A model generated the notes under the pieces. That model made no database searches. It was not told the origin of the DNA and was given only the letters and a program-made list of their open reading frames with translations. A stretch of DNA of 64,000 nt. It comes from Cellulomonas sp. URHE0023 (GTDB taxonomy: Bacteria; Actinomycetota; Actinomycetes; Actinomycetales; Cellulomonadaceae). The position numbers and the translations under genes were made by a program. Of this stretch, positions 12,934-21,976 are shown one piece after another (the stretch's first letter is position 1; each line of letters starts with the position of its first letter). The stretch is taken from NCBI RefSeq assembly GCF_000688475.1, contig NZ_JIAN01000006.1:310001-374000 (forward strand), given 5' to 3'.

Positions 12934-13053
12934 TCCTCAGCAAGAGTTGTCCGAGGAGTCGGGCGGCTCGCCGTGACGGCGAGCCGCCCGTTTCTCTGTC
13001 TTCCAGAGGTCGTAGCAGACGGCCTCGAACCGACGCAGGAGAGGTACTCACGC

Positions 13054-13680
13054 ATGGCTGACTACTCGCTTCCGGATCTGCCCTACGACTACGCGGCGCT
13101 CGAGCCGCACATCTCGGGGCGCATCATGGAGCTGCACCATGACAAGCACCACGCGGCCTACGTCACCGGCGCGAACACGGCGCTCGAGAAGCTCGCCGCG
13201 GCCCGGGCCGCCGACGACTTTGCTGCGGTGAACCTCCACGAGAAGAACCTGGCGTTCAACCTGGGCGGCCACGTCAACCACTCGGTCTTCTGGCAGAACC
13301 TCTCCCCCGAGGGCGGCGACAAGCCGGCTGGTGAGCTGGGCGCAGCAATCGACGAGTTCTTCGGCTCGTTCGAGGCGTTCCAGAAGCACTTCGCCGCCAA
13401 CGCGCTCGGCATCCAGGGGTCTGGTTGGTCGATCCTCGCGTGGGACTCGATCGGTCAGAAGCTCGTGATCGTCCAGCTGTACGACCAGCAGAGCAACATC
13501 GCGCTGGGCCTCGTCCCCGTCGTGGTTCTGGACATGTGGGAGCACGCCTTCTACCTCGACTACGTCAACGTGAAGGCGGACTACGTCAAGGCGTGGTGGA
13601 ACATCGTCAACTGGGCCGACGCGGCAACGCGCTTCGACCGCGCACGGACCCAGACCGCCGGCCTGATCGTGGCCGTCTGA
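13054..13680 (+). CDS. sodA: superoxide dismutase (Fe/Mn family)
   Basis: 208 aa, full length. It converts superoxide to oxygen and hydrogen peroxide in the cytoplasm. The N-terminal helical hairpin has [13 protein letters not shown] with the first metal His near 28; GHVNHSVFW supplies the second His, and [11 protein letters not shown] the C-terminal Asp and His ligands. ATG 13054 is chosen because AGGAGAGG lies 8-15 bases upstream; the frame opens earlier at 12973 without similarity. Mn or Fe use cannot be decided by eye. Placing it after qcrB fits protection against respiratory superoxide. A strong hairpin follows the stop. Confidence 0.95.
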
Positions 13681-14231: not shown

Positions 14232-14630
14232 TCAGTGGGCGTGCTGTCCTCGCGAGAACTCGAAGACCCACCCGACGAGGCCGATGATCCCGAGCGCGAG
14301 CCCGATGAAGGACAGCCAGAACCCGATCGCGAAGCCGGCGAAGACGATGGCCGCGGCCACACCGAGCACCAGCGGCCACCAGCTCCAGGGGCTGAACACT
14401 CCCTGGTCGCCTGCGCCCTGCTCGATCTCACCGTTCGGGTCGTCCTCGGGGCGCTCGTCGATGCGGCGACCCAGCAGCGCGAAGTACGCGCCGATCATGC
14501 CGACCAGACCGCCGACGAGCGGGATCCCGACGGTGCCCACGGGCTCCCCGTCACTCCACCAGGCGTAGATCAGGCCGACGGGAACGAAGAACAGGACCCC
14601 GTAGAGGAAGAGCTTCGTCTCGAGCTTCAC
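14232..14630 (-). CDS. ctaF: actinobacterial cytochrome c oxidase subunit IV
   Basis: 132 aa, the small subunit found only with actinobacterial aa3 oxidases. It has four predicted membrane helices in two pairs: residues about 7-24, 34-52, 84-104 and 106-124, separated by an acidic loop ([13 protein letters not shown]). The ATG at 14630 overlaps the ctaD stop (ATGA on the minus strand), so translation is coupled and the stoichiometry with subunit I is probably fixed in this way. Confidence 0.92.
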
Positions 14631-16447
14631 TTCTCGTCCTCGCCGTCCGCGTCAGTACCGGTGCTGGGCCGCTCCTCGACGATCGTCGCGGTGGACTGCT
14701 CGGGCTCGCCCTTGTCGTTCACGATCCGGTCGCGAGCGACGTCCTGCTGCCCGCGACGATCCGACTCCCAGTCCAGCAGACCCGGATCGGGCTCCACGAA
14801 GTCCATCGCGGCGACCTCGGGGTGGTGCAGGTCGAACGCGGGGCGCTCCGAACGGATCCGCGGGAGCGACGTGAAGTTGTGCCGCGGCGGGGGGCAGCTG
14901 GTGGCCCACTCGAGCGAGGCACCGTAGCCCCACGGGTCGTCGACGGTCACGAGGGGGGCGTTGCGCCACGTCGTGTAGACGTTCCAGAGGAACGGCAGCG
15001 TCGACGCCGCAAGGATGACCGCGCCGATGGTCGAGACCTGGTTCATGACCGTGAAGTTGTCGTCGGGCGAGTAGTCCGCGTACCGACGCGGCATGCCCTT
15101 CACGCCGAGCCAGTGCTGGATCAGGAACGTGGTGTGGAAGCCGATGAAGAGCAGCCAGAAGTGAAGCTTGCCGAGGCGCTCGTCGAGCATCCGGCCGGTC
15201 ATCTTGGGCCACCAGAAGTAGAACCCGGCGAACATCGCGAACACGACCGTGCCGAACACCACGTAGTGGAAGTGCGCCACGACGAAGTAGGAGTCCGACA
15301 GGGGGAAGTCGAGCGCAGGGCTGGACAGGATGATGCCCGTGAGGCCACCGAAGAGGAACGTGACCAGGAAGCCGATCGTCCAGAGCATGGGTGTCTCGAA
15401 CGTGAGCTTGCCCCGCCACATGGTGCCGATCCAGTTGAAGAACTTCACACCGGTCGGCACTGCGATGAGCATCGTCATGAACGAGAAGAACGGCAGGAGA
15501 ACCGAGCCGGTGACGTACATGTGGTGCGCCCAGACGGTCACCGACAGCGCAGCGATCGCGATCGTCGCGTAGACAAGTCCCTTGTAGCCGAAGATCGGCT
15601 TGCGGCTGAAGACCGGCAGGATCTCGGTGACGATGCCGAAGAACGGCAGCGCGATGATGTAGACCTCGGGGTGCCCGAAGAACCAGAAGAGGTGCTGCCA
15701 CAGGATGGCGCCACCGTTCTCGGGGTTGAAGACCTGTGCGCCGAAGCGGCGGTCGGCGCCGAGCGCGAACAGCGCGGCGGCCAGGGGCGGGAACGCCATG
15801 AGCACGAGCAGCGACGTCACCAGGGTGTTCCAGGTGAAGATCGGCATGCGGAACATGGTCATGCCGGGTGCGCGCATGGTCACGATGGTGGTGATGAAGT
15901 TGACCGCGCCGAGGATCGTGCCGAATCCCGCCAGAGCGAGCCCGAACACCCAGAGGTCTCCACCGAGCCCCGGCGAGTAGACCGTGTTGGACAGGGGCGC
16001 GTAGGCGAACCACCCGAACGACGCAGCGCCCTGGGGCGTGAAGAAGCCGAAGCCGGCGATCGTGCCACCGAAGAAGAAGAACCAGTACGCGAGCATGTTC
16101 AGCCGCGGGAACGCCACGTCGGGCGCGCCGATCTGCAGCGGCATGATCACGTTGGCGAAACCGGCGAACAAGGGCGTGGCGAACAGCAGCAGCATGATCG
16201 TGCCGTGCATCGTGAACGCCTGGTTGTACTGCTCCTTCGACTGGAACACCTGCATGCCCGGGTCGAAGAGCTCCGCGCGGATGAGCAGCGCGAGCGTGCC
16301 ACCCACGGCGAACCAGACGAACGACGTGATCAGGTACAGGTACCCGATCGTCTTGTGGTCGGTAGAGGTGACCCACTTGATCACCGTGCGGCCGAGCGTC
16401 TGACGCGACGGCGCCAGACCGGGGATGTGCTCCGCGACGGCGGCCAT
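14627..16447 (-). CDS. ctaD: cytochrome c oxidase subunit I
   Basis: 606 aa with twelve predicted membrane helices and the haem-copper core. The WFFGHPEVY motif carries the CuB histidine and the His-Tyr cross-link residues. The HMYVTG and [11 protein letters not shown] motifs supply the other CuB and haem histidines. It holds the low-spin haem a and the a3-CuB centre that reduces oxygen and pumps protons. The C-terminal tail of about 60 residues is charged. The start overlaps the ctaC stop by one base (TGATG). In M. tuberculosis ctaD is elsewhere; here it sits with ctaC, as in Streptomyces. Confidence 0.96.
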
Positions 16448-17331
16448 CAGTTCTCGCCTTCCTTCGCCGCGTCGGGCGCGGTGTCCTGCAGGCGGCTGTA
16501 CTCGAGTCCGAGCGAGCCCTCCTGACCCTTCGCCTTGAGGTCGGCGATGTGCGCCTCGTAGTCCTCACGCGAGACCACGTTGACGTTGAACAGCATCGAG
16601 GAGTGGTACTCACCGCAGAGCTCGGCGCACTTGCCCTCGTAGAAGCCGATCTCCTGCGGCGTGAGCTGGAACGCGTTCGTCTTTCCCGGGATCACGTCCA
16701 TCTTCATGAGGAACGCCGGCACCCAGAACGAGTGGATCACGTCGCGCGAGTCGAGCGTGAACTCCACCGACTCGTCCACCGGGAGCCAGAGCGTGACCTG
16801 GTCACGGAGCACGCCGGTGCCGGCGCTGCCGACGTCCTGCGCGTGCTGGCCGGTCTCGTACGCGTCGTCGTCGAGGTAGTTGAAGTCCCAGCTCCACTGC
16901 TTGCCGATGACCTGAACGTGGTTCTCGGTCTCGCCCGAGGTGTCGACGAGCGCGCTCGTGTCGCGGTTCGTGTAGTAGAAGAGCACACCGACCATGACGA
17001 TCGGCAGGATCACGTACATGAGCTCGAGGGGCACGTGGTACCGGAGCTGCACGGGCAGCGTGTCGTCTGCCTTGCGCTTCCGGTAGACCGTGACGCACCA
17101 CAGGATCAGGCCCCAGGTGATGACACCGACGATGAGCGCGGCGATCCACGAACCGACCCAGAGGCTGGTGACCCGACCCGTCTGGTTCGTGATCTCGTGC
17201 TCGGAGGAGCCGGGGAGCCAGCCGCGCTGGACCTCGGCGGAACATCCGCTCAAGGCGACAGCGACGACAGCAAGCAGGCCAGCAGCGACCAGCGCTGGCC
17301 GCCGCTTGCGACGGGGGGTGTCCGGGTGCAA
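16447..17331 (-). CDS. ctaC: cytochrome c oxidase subunit II (lipoprotein)
   Basis: 294 aa. The signal peptide ends in the lipobox LSGC at about residues 27-30, so the mature protein is probably lipid-anchored. Two membrane helices follow (about 57-80 and 103-122), then the cupredoxin domain. The CuA ligands are in [12 protein letters not shown] near residue 235, with the upstream His in DVIHSFWVP. It accepts electrons from QcrC. The start is TTG at 17331 with GAGAGG about eight bases upstream; no ATG or GTG in a better position gives a complete signal peptide. The genes run ctaC, ctaD, ctaF. Confidence 0.93.
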
Positions 17332-17588: not shown

Positions 17589-18776
17589 GTGAGCACGAAT
17601 CGCGAGAACGAGAACGGCCGGCCTCCGGACCCTGCCGTTGTGACGGACACCACTGCCGGGCGAGTCGTCCTCGATGCCGGTGGACGCGCGCCGATGCTCG
17701 CGGAGGCACGTGCGGCGTTCGTGGAGGCCCTCGACCAGGGGTGGGCGGACCCTCGACGGGTCCATGCCGAGGGGCGGCGCGCCCGCATGCTGCTCGACGG
17801 GGCACGTGAGGCGATCGCCACGATCGTCGGCGCTCGGACCGAGGACGTCGACCTCGCGCCGTCGCACACCGCTGCGCTGCACGGTGCCGTCCGGTCCGTC
17901 CTGCGCGGCCGCCGGCGCACCGGGGCGGACGTCGTCGTGGGCGCCGTCGAACGGGCGGCCGTCCTCAACGCCGCAGACTTCTCGGGGAACAGGATCACGG
18001 TGCCGGTCGACCCCACCGGCCGGGTCGAGGTGGCCGAGTTCGTGGAGGCTGTCCGCCGCCCCGGCGTGGCCCTCGCCGCGCTCCAGCACGCGAACGGCGA
18101 GGTCGGCACGTTGCAGCCCGTCGACGTCGTGCACGACGCGGCGCGGGCGGCGGGCGTGCCCCTCGTGATGGACGCGGGGGCGAGCCTGGGCCACGTCCCC
18201 GTCGGCGACGCCTGGGACGTGCTGGCCGGCGACGCAGGCGACTGGGGCGGTCCGAGCGGGATCGGATTGCTCGTCACCCGCTCCGGCGTCCGGCGCTCCC
18301 CGGACTGGCCGGACGACGAGGACCGCTGGTTCCCTGGTGGCGTCAGCGTCCCAGCCGCACTCGCGGCCGCCGTGGCGCTCCAGGTGGCGGTAGGTGCACG
18401 CGACGACCGGACGCGCCGCGAGCTCGTCGACCACATGCGCGCGCGCATCGCGGCGCAGGTGCCCGACGTCGACGTCGTCGGAGATCCCGTCGACCGTCTG
18501 CCGCACGTCCTGACCTTCTCGTGCCTCTACGTCGAGGGCGAGGCACTGCTGGGCGCACTGGATGCGCGAGGGTTCGCGGTCGGCTCCGGGTCGGCGTGCA
18601 CGTCGAGCGCTCTCGAGCCCAGCCACGTGCTCGCGGCGATGGGCGCGCTGACGCACGGAAACATCCGGGTCGCGCTGCCGCGAGGTACGCGCCCGGCGGA
18701 CGTCGACCGGTTCCTGGACGAGCTCCCCAGCGTCGTGGCTACGGTCCGTGAGGCATGGGGGGTCGGCGCACTGTGA
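17589..18776 (+). CDS. cysteine desulfurase (NifS/IscS-fold) homologue with no lysine
   Basis: 395 aa, aminotransferase class V fold. The persulfide loop is intact: SGSACTSSALEPSHVL with Cys337, matching the IscS loop around Cys328. The PLP site is not. The segment equivalent to SGHKxxGPKG reads DAGDWGGPSG (215-224), so the Schiff-base Lys is Asp218 and the preceding His is Gly. The ring-stacking His (EHKAVL in IscS) is Arg (ERAAVL, 121-126). The PLP Gln after MDA is Ala. There is not one lysine in the whole chain. GTG 17589 is chosen for its TACCGT box. The stop overlaps the tusA-like start. It may be a pseudoenzyme or persulfide relay, and is unlikely to be a normal desulfurase. Confidence 0.85.
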   Translation: MSTNRENENGRPPDPAVVTDTTAGRVVLDAGGRAPMLAEARAAFVEALDQGWADPRRVHAEGRRARMLLDGAREAIATIVGARTEDVDLAPSHTAALHGAVRSVLRGRRRTGADVVVGAVERAAVLNAADFSGNRITVPVDPTGRVEVAEFVEAVRRPGVALAALQHANGEVGTLQPVDVVHDAARAAGVPLVMDAGASLGHVPVGDAWDVLAGDAGDWGGPSGIGLLVTRSGVRRSPDWPDDEDRWFPGGVSVPAALAAAVALQVAVGARDDRTRRELVDHMRARIAAQVPDVDVVGDPVDRLPHVLTFSCLYVEGEALLGALDARGFAVGSGSACTSSALEPSHVLAAMGALTHGNIRVALPRGTRPADVDRFLDELPSVVATVREAWGVGAL

Positions 18777-18994
18777 TCGTCGTCGACGCCCGCGGGCTCC
18801 GTTGCCCGGCGCCGGTGATCCGGCTGGCGCGGGCTGCGAAGGATGCGCCGGTCGGCAGCACGCTGACCGTCCTGGCGACGGATCCGGCGGCCGTTCACGA
18901 CGTACCGGCATGGGCCAGGATGCGCGGGCACGTGATGCTGGAGTCGACCGAGAGCGACGGCGTCCACGCGCTCACCGTCCGCACCCAGGCATGA
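18773..18994 (+). CDS. TusA-family sulfur carrier protein
   Basis: 73 aa, the full TusA fold. It begins VIVVDARGLRCPAPVIRL with the sulfur-carrying Cys11 in the CPxP motif, followed by the family-typical LATDPAAVHDVPAW segment. TusA proteins take a persulfide from a cysteine desulfurase and pass it on in tRNA thiolation or cofactor synthesis. GTG 18773 overlaps the stop of the desulfurase homologue (GTGA), so the two are made together; an ATG at 18755 in the same frame would overlap more. The partner's loss of the PLP lysine makes the sulfur source uncertain. A hairpin terminator follows directly. Confidence 0.88.
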   Translation: MIVVDARGLRCPAPVIRLARAAKDAPVGSTLTVLATDPAAVHDVPAWARMRGHVMLESTESDGVHALTVRTQA

Positions 18995-19036: not shown

Positions 19037-19387
19037 TCAGCTGAACGAACCGCCGCACGCGCAGGCGCTGCCAGCGTTCGGGTTGTCGATCGTGAAGCCC
19101 TGCTTCTCGATCGTGTCGGCGAAGTCGATCGTCGCGCCCTCGAGGTACGGGACGCTCATGCGGTCCACGACGACCTCGACGCCGTCGTAGTCCTTCACGG
19201 CGTCGCCGTCGAGGACGCGCTCGTCGAAGTACAGCTGGTAGATCAGGCCAGAGCAGCCACCGGGCTGGACGGCGACACGAAGACGCAGGTCGTCGCGGCC
19301 CTCCTGCTCCAGGAGGCTGCGGACCTTTCCGGCGGCGACGTCGGTGAGGAGGACGCCGTGCGTCGTGGTCTGCGTGGTCTCGCTCAT
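19037..19387 (-). CDS. A-type iron-sulfur carrier (HesB/IscA/ErpA family)
   Basis: 116 aa. The three cluster-binding cysteines are present: Cys45 in GGCSG and Cys109 and Cys111 in the C-terminal CAC motif. Proteins of this kind deliver Fe-S clusters to apo-enzymes; nearby clients could include NadA, LipA and the Rieske protein, but that is inference. ATG 19387 has GGAGAG upstream and gives the usual N-terminus before LTDVAAGKV. It matches Rv2204c of M. tuberculosis by position. It converges on the desulfurase-TusA pair. Confidence 0.9.
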   Translation of the reverse strand: MSETTQTTTHGVLLTDVAAGKVRSLLEQEGRDDLRLRVAVQPGGCSGLIYQLYFDERVLDGDAVKDYDGVEVVVDRMSVPYLEGATIDFADTIEKQGFTIDNPNAGSACACGGSFS

Positions 19388-19535: not shown

Positions 19536-20726
19536 CTATCGGGACCACGTCCGGGCAACCCTCGCGGCGCGCGCGGCCAAGGTCTGCGCGGGTGCTGCGA
19601 GTGCTTCGCGTACCCCCTCAGCAGTGCTCGCCACCGCGTACGCGGCCGTGATCCCCGCCGCTGAGAGCTCCCTGCGACCGACCAGGACCTCGCCCGCAAG
19701 CACGACCGTGGGGACGCCGTGCGCGAGCGCCCGCGACGCGACCTCGGTCGCGGCCTTGCCGTGCAACGACTGCCAGTCGAACCTGCCCTCCCCGGTCACG
19801 ACCAGGTCGACCTCGGCGATCCGCGCGCCGAGCCCGACCGCGTCGGCCACGAAGCCTGACCCTGGGACGAGCCGACCCCCGACGAGCGACAGCCCGAAAC
19901 CCAGCCCTCCCGCGGCACCGGCCCCCGCTGCGGTGGTCAGGCGCGTCGTCCCGGACGCGGCTCGTGCACCGGCCATGAGATCGGGACGGACCGCGTCACC
20001 CAGCGCTCCGGCTGCCACATGGGCGAAGTCGGCGAGGGCGCGCTCGAGCGCCTGCGCCTGCTCGGGCGTCGCGCCCTTCTGCGGGGCGAAACCCGCACTC
20101 GCACCCTGCAGACCGAGCAGCGGAACGTCCACGTCGGTCGCGACGACGAGGTCGACGCCTCGGAGCCGGTCGCGCAGGGCCGGCAGACCCGCGACGTCGT
20201 CGGCCGTGACCGCTCCAAGGGTTGCGCCACCTCGCGCGAGGTCGTCGGACAGCCCCGGCACGCGGAGCGCGTCGGCGAGCGCGACCAGGGCACCAGCGCC
20301 TGCGTCGTTCGTCGCGGAGCCGCCGAGTCCGACCACCACCCGGGTGGCTCCCTCGGCGAGCGCGGCCGCGAGCACGTCACCCACCCCGCGCGACGTCGTC
20401 CGGCCGGGATCACGCCGCTCGGGCGGGACGAGAGGCAGGCCGATCGCCTGCGCCGACTCGACGTAGGCCGTTGCCCCGACGCGCAGGAACACGACCGGAA
20501 CGGGCTCTCCGACGGGAGAGAGCACCGTGACAGGGACGAGGTCACCGCCCAAGGCGCGGTGAAGCGTCGCGACGAACCCGGGTCCTCCGTCGGAGAGCGG
20601 GCACGTGAGCACGTCGTCATCCGGCGCGACCGTGCGCCAGGCGCCGGCGATGACGTCCGCCGCCTCGTCGGCCGTCAGGCTCGAGCCGAAGCTGTCGGGG
20701 GCGATGAGGACGCGCACGCCGTGCAT
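19536..20726 (-). CDS. glxK: glycerate kinase (GarK/GlxK family)
   Basis: 396 aa, full length for the GarK-type glycerate kinase, which phosphorylates D-glycerate with ATP. The family start VLIAPDSFGSSLTADEAA is near residues 5-22, PLSDGGPGF near 45, GLGGSATNDAGAG near 130 and the VVTGEGRFDWQS motif near 310. ATG 20726 or GTG 20717 could start it; neither has a clear ribosome site. Rv2205c is the positional counterpart. It is divergent from nadA with 47 bases between. Confidence 0.9.
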   Translation of the reverse strand: MHGVRVLIAPDSFGSSLTADEAADVIAGAWRTVAPDDDVLTCPLSDGGPGFVATLHRALGGDLVPVTVLSPVGEPVPVVFLRVGATAYVESAQAIGLPLVPPERRDPGRTTSRGVGDVLAAALAEGATRVVVGLGGSATNDAGAGALVALADALRVPGLSDDLARGGATLGAVTADDVAGLPALRDRLRGVDLVVATDVDVPLLGLQGASAGFAPQKGATPEQAQALERALADFAHVAAGALGDAVRPDLMAGARAASGTTRLTTAAGAGAAGGLGFGLSLVGGRLVPGSGFVADAVGLGARIAEVDLVVTGEGRFDWQSLHGKAATEVASRALAHGVPTVVLAGEVLVGRRELSAAGITAAYAVASTAEGVREALAAPAQTLAARAARVARTWSR

Positions 20727-20773
20727 CGTGGCACGCCTGACGGGCGTCGCGGACCGTGTGGGAGGATCGGCGC

Positions 20774-21976
20774 GTGAGCGTGACCACGGATCGACGCACC
20801 TTCCCCGAGCCGGCTCCGTCGGCCCTCCTGCTGCTGGGGCGCGGCATCGACCTCGCCTCCGAGCGTGGGGTCGAGTGCGTCGGGGACCTCCCGGCAGCCA
20901 GCGACCCGGACCTCGTCGAACGGGCACGCGCGGCCCGTGCGGCGCTCGGCACCCGCGCGTTCGTGCTCGGCCACCACTACCAGCGCGACGAGGTGATCGA
21001 CTTCGCCGACGTCACGGGCGACTCGTTCAAGCTCGCCCGCGAGGCCGCGGCGCGACCCGACGCCGAGTTCATCATCTTCTGCGGCGTGCACTTCATGGCC
21101 GAGTCCGCGGACATCCTGACGTCGGAACACCAGAAGGTGATCCTCCCCGATCTGGCAGCCGGTTGCTCCATGGCGGACATGGCGGCCATCGACCAGGTCG
21201 AGGACGCGTGGGACGTGCTCGCCGACGCCGGGATCGCCGACGACACCATTCCGGTGACGTACATGAACTCCACGGCCGCGATCAAGGCGTTCACCGGACG
21301 CCACGGCGGCACGATCTGTACCTCGTCGAACGCGCACGTCGCGCTCCGGTGGGCGTTCGACCAGGTCGGCGGCATCGAGGGCACCGGCAAGGTGCTGTTC
21401 ATGCCGGACCAGCACCTCGGCCGCAACACCGCGGTGCTCCAGCTGGGTCTGTCCCTGGACGACTGCGTGGTGTTCGACCCACGCAAGCCGGGTGGCGGTC
21501 TGACCACCGAGCAGCTGCGGGACGCGCGCATGATCCTGTGGCGCGGCCACTGCTCGGTGCACGGCCGCTTCTCGGAGCGCAACGTCACCGACATCCGCGC
21601 CGCCGTCCCGGACGTGACCGTGCTCGTGCACCCCGAGTGCAAGCACGAGGTGGTCACGGCGGCAGACATGGTGGGGTCGACCGAGTACATCATCAAGGCC
21701 CTCGATGCCGCCGAGCCGGGCAGCTCCTGGGCCATCGGCACCGAGCTCAACCTGGTGCGGCGGATCGCAGCGGCGCACCCGGACAAGAACGTCCACTACC
21801 TCGACTCCACGGTCTGCTTCTGCTCGACCATGAACCGCATCGACCTGCCACACCTGGTCTGGGCGATGGAGTCCTTGCTCGCCGGCCGAACCGTCAACCA
21901 GATCGTCGTGGACGCGGACGTCGCACACTGGGCGCGGGTTGCTCTCGACCAGATGCTCGCGTTGCCCGGGTACTGA
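20774..21976 (+). CDS. nadA: quinolinate synthase A
   Basis: 400 aa. It condenses iminoaspartate with dihydroxyacetone phosphate to quinolinate in NAD synthesis, and carries an oxygen-sensitive 4Fe-4S cluster. Likely cluster ligands are Cys103 (FCGVHFMAES), Cys289 (HPECKHEVV) and Cys348 or Cys350 (VCFCSTMN). The substrate motif GHHYQRDEV is at 66-74. GTG 20774 is chosen because GGGAGGA lies about eight bases upstream. nadB and nadC are not in the window, but nadE is 37 kb to the right and an Fe-S carrier is next but one. Confidence 0.94.
   Translation: MSVTTDRRTFPEPAPSALLLLGRGIDLASERGVECVGDLPAASDPDLVERARAARAALGTRAFVLGHHYQRDEVIDFADVTGDSFKLAREAAARPDAEFIIFCGVHFMAESADILTSEHQKVILPDLAAGCSMADMAAIDQVEDAWDVLADAGIADDTIPVTYMNSTAAIKAFTGRHGGTICTSSNAHVALRWAFDQVGGIEGTGKVLFMPDQHLGRNTAVLQLGLSLDDCVVFDPRKPGGGLTTEQLRDARMILWRGHCSVHGRFSERNVTDIRAAVPDVTVLVHPECKHEVVTAADMVGSTEYIIKALDAAEPGSSWAIGTELNLVRRIAAAHPDKNVHYLDSTVCFCSTMNRIDLPHLVWAMESLLAGRTVNQIVVDADVAHWARVALDQMLALPGY

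Follow-up and report, generated by a model that had tools for sequence, protein, structure and literature searches.

In the usual view, pyridoxal phosphate (PLP)-dependent cysteine desulfurases are the source of the sulfur in Fe-S clusters, thiolated tRNA, and cofactors, and carriers then pass it on. In one of the closest described systems, IscS and TusA of Escherichia coli, functional roles have been described for His104, Asp180, Gln183, Lys206, Cys328, and Arg354 of IscS (PMC9978102). According to the same source, the K206A, H104Q, and Q183E variants are without desulfurase activity and R354K is fully active; K206A retains some PLP, and the authors speculate that a very slow partial reaction still takes place with it. 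On the carrier side, Cys19, Asp45, and Asp51 of E. coli TusA are linked to sulfur transfer (PMC2854127). SspA, a DNA phosphorothioation desulfurase, uses Ser198 and His200 as phosphate ligands, and its Arg340 and Asn150 hold the substrate carboxylate (PMC7188994); we infer that these correspond to Ser203, His205, Arg354, and Asn155 of IscS.

The locus considered here lies in a window of 64,000 nucleotides (GC content of 0.703) from the 4.2-Mb genome of Cellulomonas sp. URHE0023. It encodes P0001, a homologue of these desulfurases, followed by P0002, a TusA-family protein, with the following features.

14627..16447, minus strand: ctaD, cytochrome c oxidase subunit I, neighbor (PF00115)
16447..17331, minus strand: ctaC, cytochrome c oxidase subunit II, divergent, conserved neighbor (PF00116)
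17589..18776, plus strand: P0001, lysine-less NifS/IscS-type cysteine desulfurase homologue, 395 amino acids (Pfam Aminotran_5)
17952..17954, plus strand: Arg122 codon, aligned with the ring-stacking residue of IscS, His104 (alignment with E. coli IscS)
18231..18242, plus strand: codons 215 to 218 (DAGD), replacing the SAHK motif (family and IscS alignment)
18240..18242, plus strand: Asp218 codon, at the Schiff-base lysine position (family and IscS alignment)
18597..18599, plus strand: Cys337 codon, at the persulfide cysteine position, in SGSAC (orthologue alignment)
18666..18668, plus strand: Arg360 codon, equivalent to Arg354 of IscS, invariant in the sample (orthologue and IscS alignment)
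18773..18994, plus strand: P0002, TusA-family sulfur carrier (PF01206, 76.5 bits against a cutoff of 28.6)
18803..18805, plus strand: cysteine codon of the TusA CPAP motif
19037..19387, minus strand: convergent ErpA/IscA-type Fe-S carrier, conserved neighbor (PF01521, Fe-S_biosyn)
19536..20723, minus strand: glycerate kinase family gene, neighbor (PF02595)
20756..21976, plus strand: nadA, quinolinate synthase, neighbor (PF02445)

The P0001 gene runs from a GTG start at 17589 to a stop codon at 18774-18776. The TusA gene likely starts at the GTG at 18773, overlapping that stop by 4 bases; the alternative is an in-frame ATG at 18755, from which P0002 reads. The six close named loci are all from Cellulomonas (69 to 83% identity), and the two other named loci are distant paralogues. 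A gene resembling Fe/Mn superoxide dismutase was seen by eye elsewhere in the window (12973-13680, plus strand).

P0001 is a member of the class V aminotransferase family (Aminotran_5, 92.2 bits against a cutoff of 21.5), but all matching NCBIfam desulfurase models score it far below their cutoffs, the equivalog models for NifS (190.7 against 530.75 bits) and IscS (PRK14012; 119.7 against 548) included. P0002 carries a PF01206 domain with the CPxP cysteine and falls short of the NCBIfam TusA equivalog cutoff (46.4 against 78 bits). A preliminary description, made from the letters of the DNA, had placed an aspartate at the PLP lysine position of a protein that keeps its persulfide cysteine and had reported loss of the flanking His, the ring-stacking His, and the PLP Gln. 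Alignment of E. coli IscS (from the MG1655 record) into the P0001 family agrees on every residue: Lys206 is replaced by Asp218, His205 by Gly217, His104 by Arg122, and Gln183 by Ala198, and Cys328 is retained as Cys337 in the SGSAC loop. The description was also accurate in finding no lysine in the whole chain (zero in 395 residues), in identifying the next gene, with its 4-base overlap and intact CPxP cysteine (CPAP), as TusA, and in recognizing the convergent Fe-S carrier gene. The alignment adds the changes of the phosphate ligand Ser203 to Asp215 and of Asn155 to Gly170, and the retention of Arg354 as Arg360 and of Asp180 as Asp195. Invariant Asn169 had been considered as the substrate-binding asparagine of IscS; this was wrong, as Asn155 aligns with Gly170. 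Thr243 is replaced by Gly251, a change that is not specific to lysine loss because lysine-bearing orthologues mostly lack threonine there too (Phe in 43 of 60). Because the lysine and most other PLP ligands are lost, P0001 should no longer release cysteine sulfur by Schiff-base PLP chemistry, and the reported inactivity of the K206A, H104Q, and Q183E variants of IscS (PMC9978102) points to the same conclusion.

With a profile built from twelve orthologues, 214 of 296 genomes searched in the class gave a match at an E value of ≤1e-60 (the weakest of these matches are probably IscS paralogues), and 74 of 297 genomes of the order gave one at ≤1e-80. A part of these loci was fetched, chosen to cover families and lysine-less groups, and the proportions given here are therefore not frequencies. 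They yielded 167 distinct sequences, of which 4 partial ones (L051, L192, L193, and L194) were dropped, 10 of IscS type served as the outgroup, and 153 actinobacterial orthologues were counted. The lysine is kept in 60 and absent in 93; position 218 holds Lys (60), Asp (64), Ser (17), Ala (6), Gly (3), or, once each, Met, Glu, and Thr.

The expectation that lysine loss and cysteine retention go together is borne out across this sample. Cys337 is present in 60/60 lysine-bearing sequences and in all 92 lysine-less sequences that reach it (one row is cut short), as is Arg360 (60/60 and 92/92). The SGSAC loop of the 93 lysine-less members, again with one row cut short, retains Ser333 in 90, Gly334 in 92, Ser335 in 91, Ala336 in 88, and Cys337 in 92. 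The pyridine-nitrogen ligand Asp195 is found in every lysine-bearing member and in 91 of the 93 lysine-less ones. Conversely, His122 is kept in 60/60 with lysine and 23/93 without it, Gln198 in 39/60 and 3/93, and the lysine-less members retain Ser215 in 7 cases and His217 in 1; in 74 of the 93 the phosphate-binding serine has become aspartate. The earlier view, in which both reactive cysteines survive the dismantling of the PLP site, is supported by sequence. Of the 372 columns in the lysine-less alignment, 14, including Cys337 and Arg360, show no change anywhere on the tree, and the median column changes 16 times; columns that are near-invariant with lysine but broken down without it include 122 (His), 215 (Ser), 218 (Lys), and 93 (Gly). 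The Cys337 loop is under strict selection. Conservation of the cysteine means that the residue matters but does not by itself mean that it carries persulfide. The absence of all lysines is less striking than it may seem because the family is lysine poor (apart from the catalytic residue, the aligned domain is free of lysine in 23 of 60 lysine-bearing members) and is mostly a by-product of such a family in a GC-rich genome.

We favor, with moderate confidence, the interpretation of P0001 as a pseudo-desulfurase whose Schiff-base PLP chemistry is gone and whose retained role is to handle persulfide, most probably as a relay to TusA. P0001 would be an orthologue of an actinobacterial cysteine desulfurase that pairs with TusA, and its sequence shows the loss of the Schiff-base lysine and most other PLP ligands. 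Cys337 may now accept persulfide from another donor, perhaps one of the genome's own desulfurases of SufS or IscS type or a persulfide of low molecular weight, and would hand its sulfur to the TusA cysteine. A possible donor exists because the genome encodes lysine-bearing enzymes of both types, as a search for a second, canonical SufS or IscS established. Among 15 class V aminotransferase stretches in the window's genome (G000), two of which are P0001 itself, L001 passes the SufS cutoff (523.8 against 475.1 bits) and L002 falls below it (265.6 bits), both with the HK motif, and L004 is of NifS/IscS type (350.7 bits to NifS, under the cutoff) with GHKVGGP and STGSAC. Some observations count against this interpretation: the conserved Asp195 and Arg360 are residues that a pure carrier need not keep, some lysine-less lineages have no findable cognate TusA, K206A of IscS is suspected by its authors of residual partial turnover (PMC9978102), and the tree of the gene itself rejects neither a single lysine-less clade nor the union of L121 with the large lysine-less clade.

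Where there was enough sequence to tell, TusA lies directly downstream of 57 of 59 lysine-bearing orthologues (one of them, L102, being a weak match without CPxP) and of 60 of 92 lysine-less ones. In the latter, the adjacent TusA has its cysteine in 59/60 cases and the equivalents of Asp45 and Asp51 in 60/60. P0002 is the only PF01206 match found in the window's genome. Fused desulfurase-TusA proteins, which the preliminary description mentioned for actinobacteria, do exist: nine lysine-bearing rows are single-frame fusions, and all nine belong to family f37; a single lysine-less homologue is also fused (L185; Ala at the lysine position, 489-amino-acid open frame). Strict obligate coupling to an adjacent TusA is nevertheless rejected, as 32 of the 92 lysine-less genes have none.

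In Cellulomonas, 32 of 36 sampled genomes have the full gene, and all 32 have a cognate TusA, either an adjacent CPxP protein (17) or a TusA-like protein elsewhere (15; E value of at most 7e-31). The relocated form, checked in nine of the 36 genomes including G034, reads GGDLGCARL, with the cysteine kept and neither proline present. In 16 of the 36 genomes this C-A-R form (L207:3981-4148, L208:3531-3698, and similar) stands in for the adjacent TusA, and L235 to L239 and L274 to L279 are further loci of it or of the related C-V-R form of family f15. As for the other four genomes, G034 has a gene fragment at a contig end plus the relocated form, G012 has a fragment and no TusA was found in it, and G004 and the poorly assembled G011 lack both the gene and a cognate TusA. 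No Cellulomonas genome (0/36) carries both the adjacent and the relocated TusA. Elsewhere, G522 and four genomes of other genera (G413, G511, G482, and G588) have the C-A-R form and no adjacent TusA. Six f15 genomes have the C-V-R form, and the five whose loci were read (the sixth is G418) also have an adjacent CPLP TusA, so that the adjacent CPxP kind and the relocated kind do not strictly exclude each other. Weak TusA matches elsewhere also occur in G400 and G476, which have adjacent TusA genes (L181 and L182).

No PF01206 match was found in the lysine-less genomes G377, G586, and G119, nor was a cognate TusA found in the lysine-bearing genome G060. Four lysine-less genomes (G043, G363, G439, and G544) have their sole PF01206 match inside an open frame of 837 to 909 amino acids. 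TusA domains inside long open frames (837 to 911 amino acids) were also seen at L216 and L229 to L234, and we take such proteins probably to be CoA-disulfide-reductase-like fusions. In four f51 genomes a TusA with CPMP is encoded elsewhere and appears to belong to a different subfamily. Because several lysine-less lineages are without a findable cognate TusA, handing sulfur to TusA cannot fully explain the protein in every lineage. The small genome G464 has two copies of the desulfurase homologue (L169 and L170), both lysine-less. At L170 the loop reads CGCTC, with the aligned cysteine kept, and the adjacent TusA is without its cysteine; this is a single case of joint change.

Those TusA-less lineages would be easier to accommodate if P0001 moved no sulfur at all but bound either TusA or a canonical desulfurase (perhaps forming a heterodimer) and controlled the access or activity of that partner, with Cys337 serving as a redox or docking residue. 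Pseudoenzymes often become regulators, which speaks for such a scaffold or regulator. IscS and SufS of E. coli are themselves regulated by partner proteins (PMC11446229). It is harder to see the SGSAC loop being kept almost letter for letter throughout the lysine-less set under this alternative, or the TusA equivalents of Cys19, Asp45, and Asp51, given their described roles in sulfur transfer (PMC2854127); we consider it possible but unlikely.

The retained active-site residues raise another alternative. The pocket formed by Arg122, Asp195, Asp215, Asp218, and Arg360 could take another substrate, or hold PLP or PMP without a Schiff base, while Cys337 attacks a donor such as cysteine persulfide. 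Conservation of Asp195 and Arg360 is in keeping with continued catalysis of a changed kind, and Asp218 occurs with Arg122 in 59 of 64 sequences and with His122 in 0 of 64, as if the pocket had been rebuilt; however, only 4 independent pairs bear on this association, and across them its median p value is 0.5. The replacement of the phosphate serine by aspartate and the loss, in most members, of the flanking His and the Gln also argue against this alternative. The K206A variant of IscS is informative on both sides, since it still holds some PLP but is without desulfurase activity (PMC9978102). Taken as a whole, including the proposed sulfur step, a changed catalyst seems to us improbable.

The relay interpretation gains further from the history of the locus. 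Lysine-bearing and lysine-less orthologues occupy one shared locus (ctaFDC, TusA, erpA, and nadA). Among loci longer than 7 kb, the fetched flank contains ctaC in 39, ctaD in 38, erpA in 40, and nadA in 26 of 43 lysine-bearing cases and in 42, 42, 39, and 31, respectively, of 44 lysine-less cases, and ctaC was found in 0 of 10 IscS-type outgroup loci. The loci without ctaC are L105, L108, L195, L196, L169, and L170. Outside the class, a search of 149 genomes of the phylum was followed by inspection of 25 new loci, of which four have an adjacent TusA (L249, L250, L251, and L265). All four keep the lysine, and we infer that lysine is the ancestral state. Another locus outside the class, L267 (G611), encodes an IscS-like protein in which Leu aligns with the Schiff-base lysine; it retains SGSAC and differs at the Arg354 equivalent.

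A tree of the neighboring genes (CtaD, CtaC, ErpA, and NadA) was built from 74 rows, that is, the 87 in-group loci longer than 7 kb minus 10 near-duplicates and 3 with too few neighbor residues. On this tree the lysine state changes five times: the lysine-less rows form a 28-row clade of the window's family and families f5, f9, f15, f17, and f18 of its order, a seven-row f51 clade, and three lineages of one genome each (L111, L112, and L121). Approximately unbiased (AU) tests on the neighbor genes (37 rows) rejected a single lysine-less clade (p = 2.2e-6); the joining of the large clade, represented by eight rows, with f51 (p = 2.1e-6), L121 (0.0015), L111 (3.9e-5), or L112 (1.3e-5); and the joining of L111 with L112 (2.8e-4), although the tests are weakened by the groups having been named after the trees were seen. 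The gene's own tree is insufficient as proof of several losses: AU tests on it alone did not reject a single lysine-less clade (p = 0.091) or the union of L121 with the large clade (p = 0.39). With 158 rows (five outgroup rows left out) it changes state seven times, on doubtful long branches, and a careful, hand-selected set of 68 rows, which omits L103, L198, L120, and other long rows, gives five changes. In the 158-row tree the long lysine-bearing rows L103 and L198 fall among lysine-less rows and L120 falls beside the f51 clade; we read these placements as long-branch artifacts because the neighbor-gene tree groups all three with lysine-bearing rows. By parsimony on the neighbor-gene tree, then, the lysine appears to have been lost about five times at one conserved locus. 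Transfer of the gene in place could in principle mimic repeated loss, but the conserved neighbors argue against it.

Because it would have arisen about five times at a conserved locus, the lysine-free state looks like a recurrent, stable outcome rather than the decay of a single gene. In close lysine-less pairs (n = 18; dS of 0.05 to 0.5) the median dN/dS is 0.159 (range, 0.088 to 0.394), and in close lysine-bearing pairs (n = 19; same dS range) it is 0.177 (0.136 to 0.465); the close lysine-less pairs are under purifying selection. NG86 estimates for distant pairs (medians of 0.49 lysine-less and 0.45 lysine-bearing) were set aside as saturated, with dS values of up to 1.2. That lysine loss marks the beginning of gene loss is strongly disfavored and, in our view, very improbable: the gene is absent or unrecognized in much of the order, where 74 of 297 genomes matched at ≤1e-80, and is missing from the congeneric G004 and the poorly assembled G011, but a dN/dS of about 0.16, the invariant Cys and Arg, and the conserved neighborhood are not those of a relic. 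A sequencing or annotation error hiding a lysine at 18240, which the preliminary description had named as grounds for refutation, is itself refuted and deserves practically no credence, since Asp218 recurs in 64 and a non-lysine residue in 93 of 153 orthologues from dozens of other assemblies, with several neighboring positions changed too.

If P0001 is a persulfide relay, only the sulfur-transfer half of the desulfurase reaction is retained. A wider proposal, that at one locus actinobacteria have converted a PLP enzyme, on about five separate occasions, into a protein that carries persulfide without a cofactor, with TusA mostly kept, and that these proteins form a recurrent class of pseudo-desulfurases, is one we advance tentatively, as a serious possibility somewhat short of even. 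A search of the full-text literature, with most subscription papers outside its reach, found no published description of a lysine-less, TusA-paired desulfurase homologue, which is weak evidence of novelty. Should the proposal hold, a desulfurase fold would have given up the first step several times over while retaining the second. The two halves of the reaction would then be separated in nature, natural test proteins for persulfide transfer would be available, and cysteine desulfurase-like proteins in actinobacterial genomes could not safely be assumed to be desulfurases.

Among known proteins, P0001 is related to E. coli IscS (1p3w) over most of its length (phmmer E value of 2.5e-30) and shares with it the persulfide cysteine in a loop, the Arg354 and Asp180 equivalents, and a TusA partner, but unlike IscS it is without the Schiff-base Lys, the ring-stacking His, the PLP Gln, and the phosphate Ser and His. 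TusA contacts on IscS in the IscS-TusA crystal include Trp45, Asp52, and Arg55 (PMC2854127). By comparison with that complex (3lvj), P0001 keeps Asp52 (Asp70) and Arg55 (Arg73) and has changed Trp45 (to Arg63) and Glu49 (to Met67); in 59 of the 60 lysine-bearing orthologues the Trp45 position likewise holds Arg. P0002 matches E. coli TusA (3lvj_C; E value of 8.7e-10) and has CPxP and the Asp45 and Asp51 equivalents but, unlike E. coli TusA, is paired with a lysine-less partner; the C-A-R form of Cellulomonas relatives without an adjacent TusA differs from E. coli TusA in lacking both prolines. The DNA phosphorothioation desulfurases SspA and DndA (6m4j and 3vax) belong by sequence to the same fold family as P0001, but SspA keeps its PLP lysine, Lys201 (PMC7188994). 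The lysine-bearing orthologues at the ctaC-erpA-nadA locus, whose TusA is either a separate neighbor, as in Nonomuraea gerenzanensis (L243), or fused, as in f37, share the locus, the TusA partner, and the persulfide loop of P0001 and differ from it in having SAHKWGGP or a close variant, with the lysine and the stacking His in 60/60.
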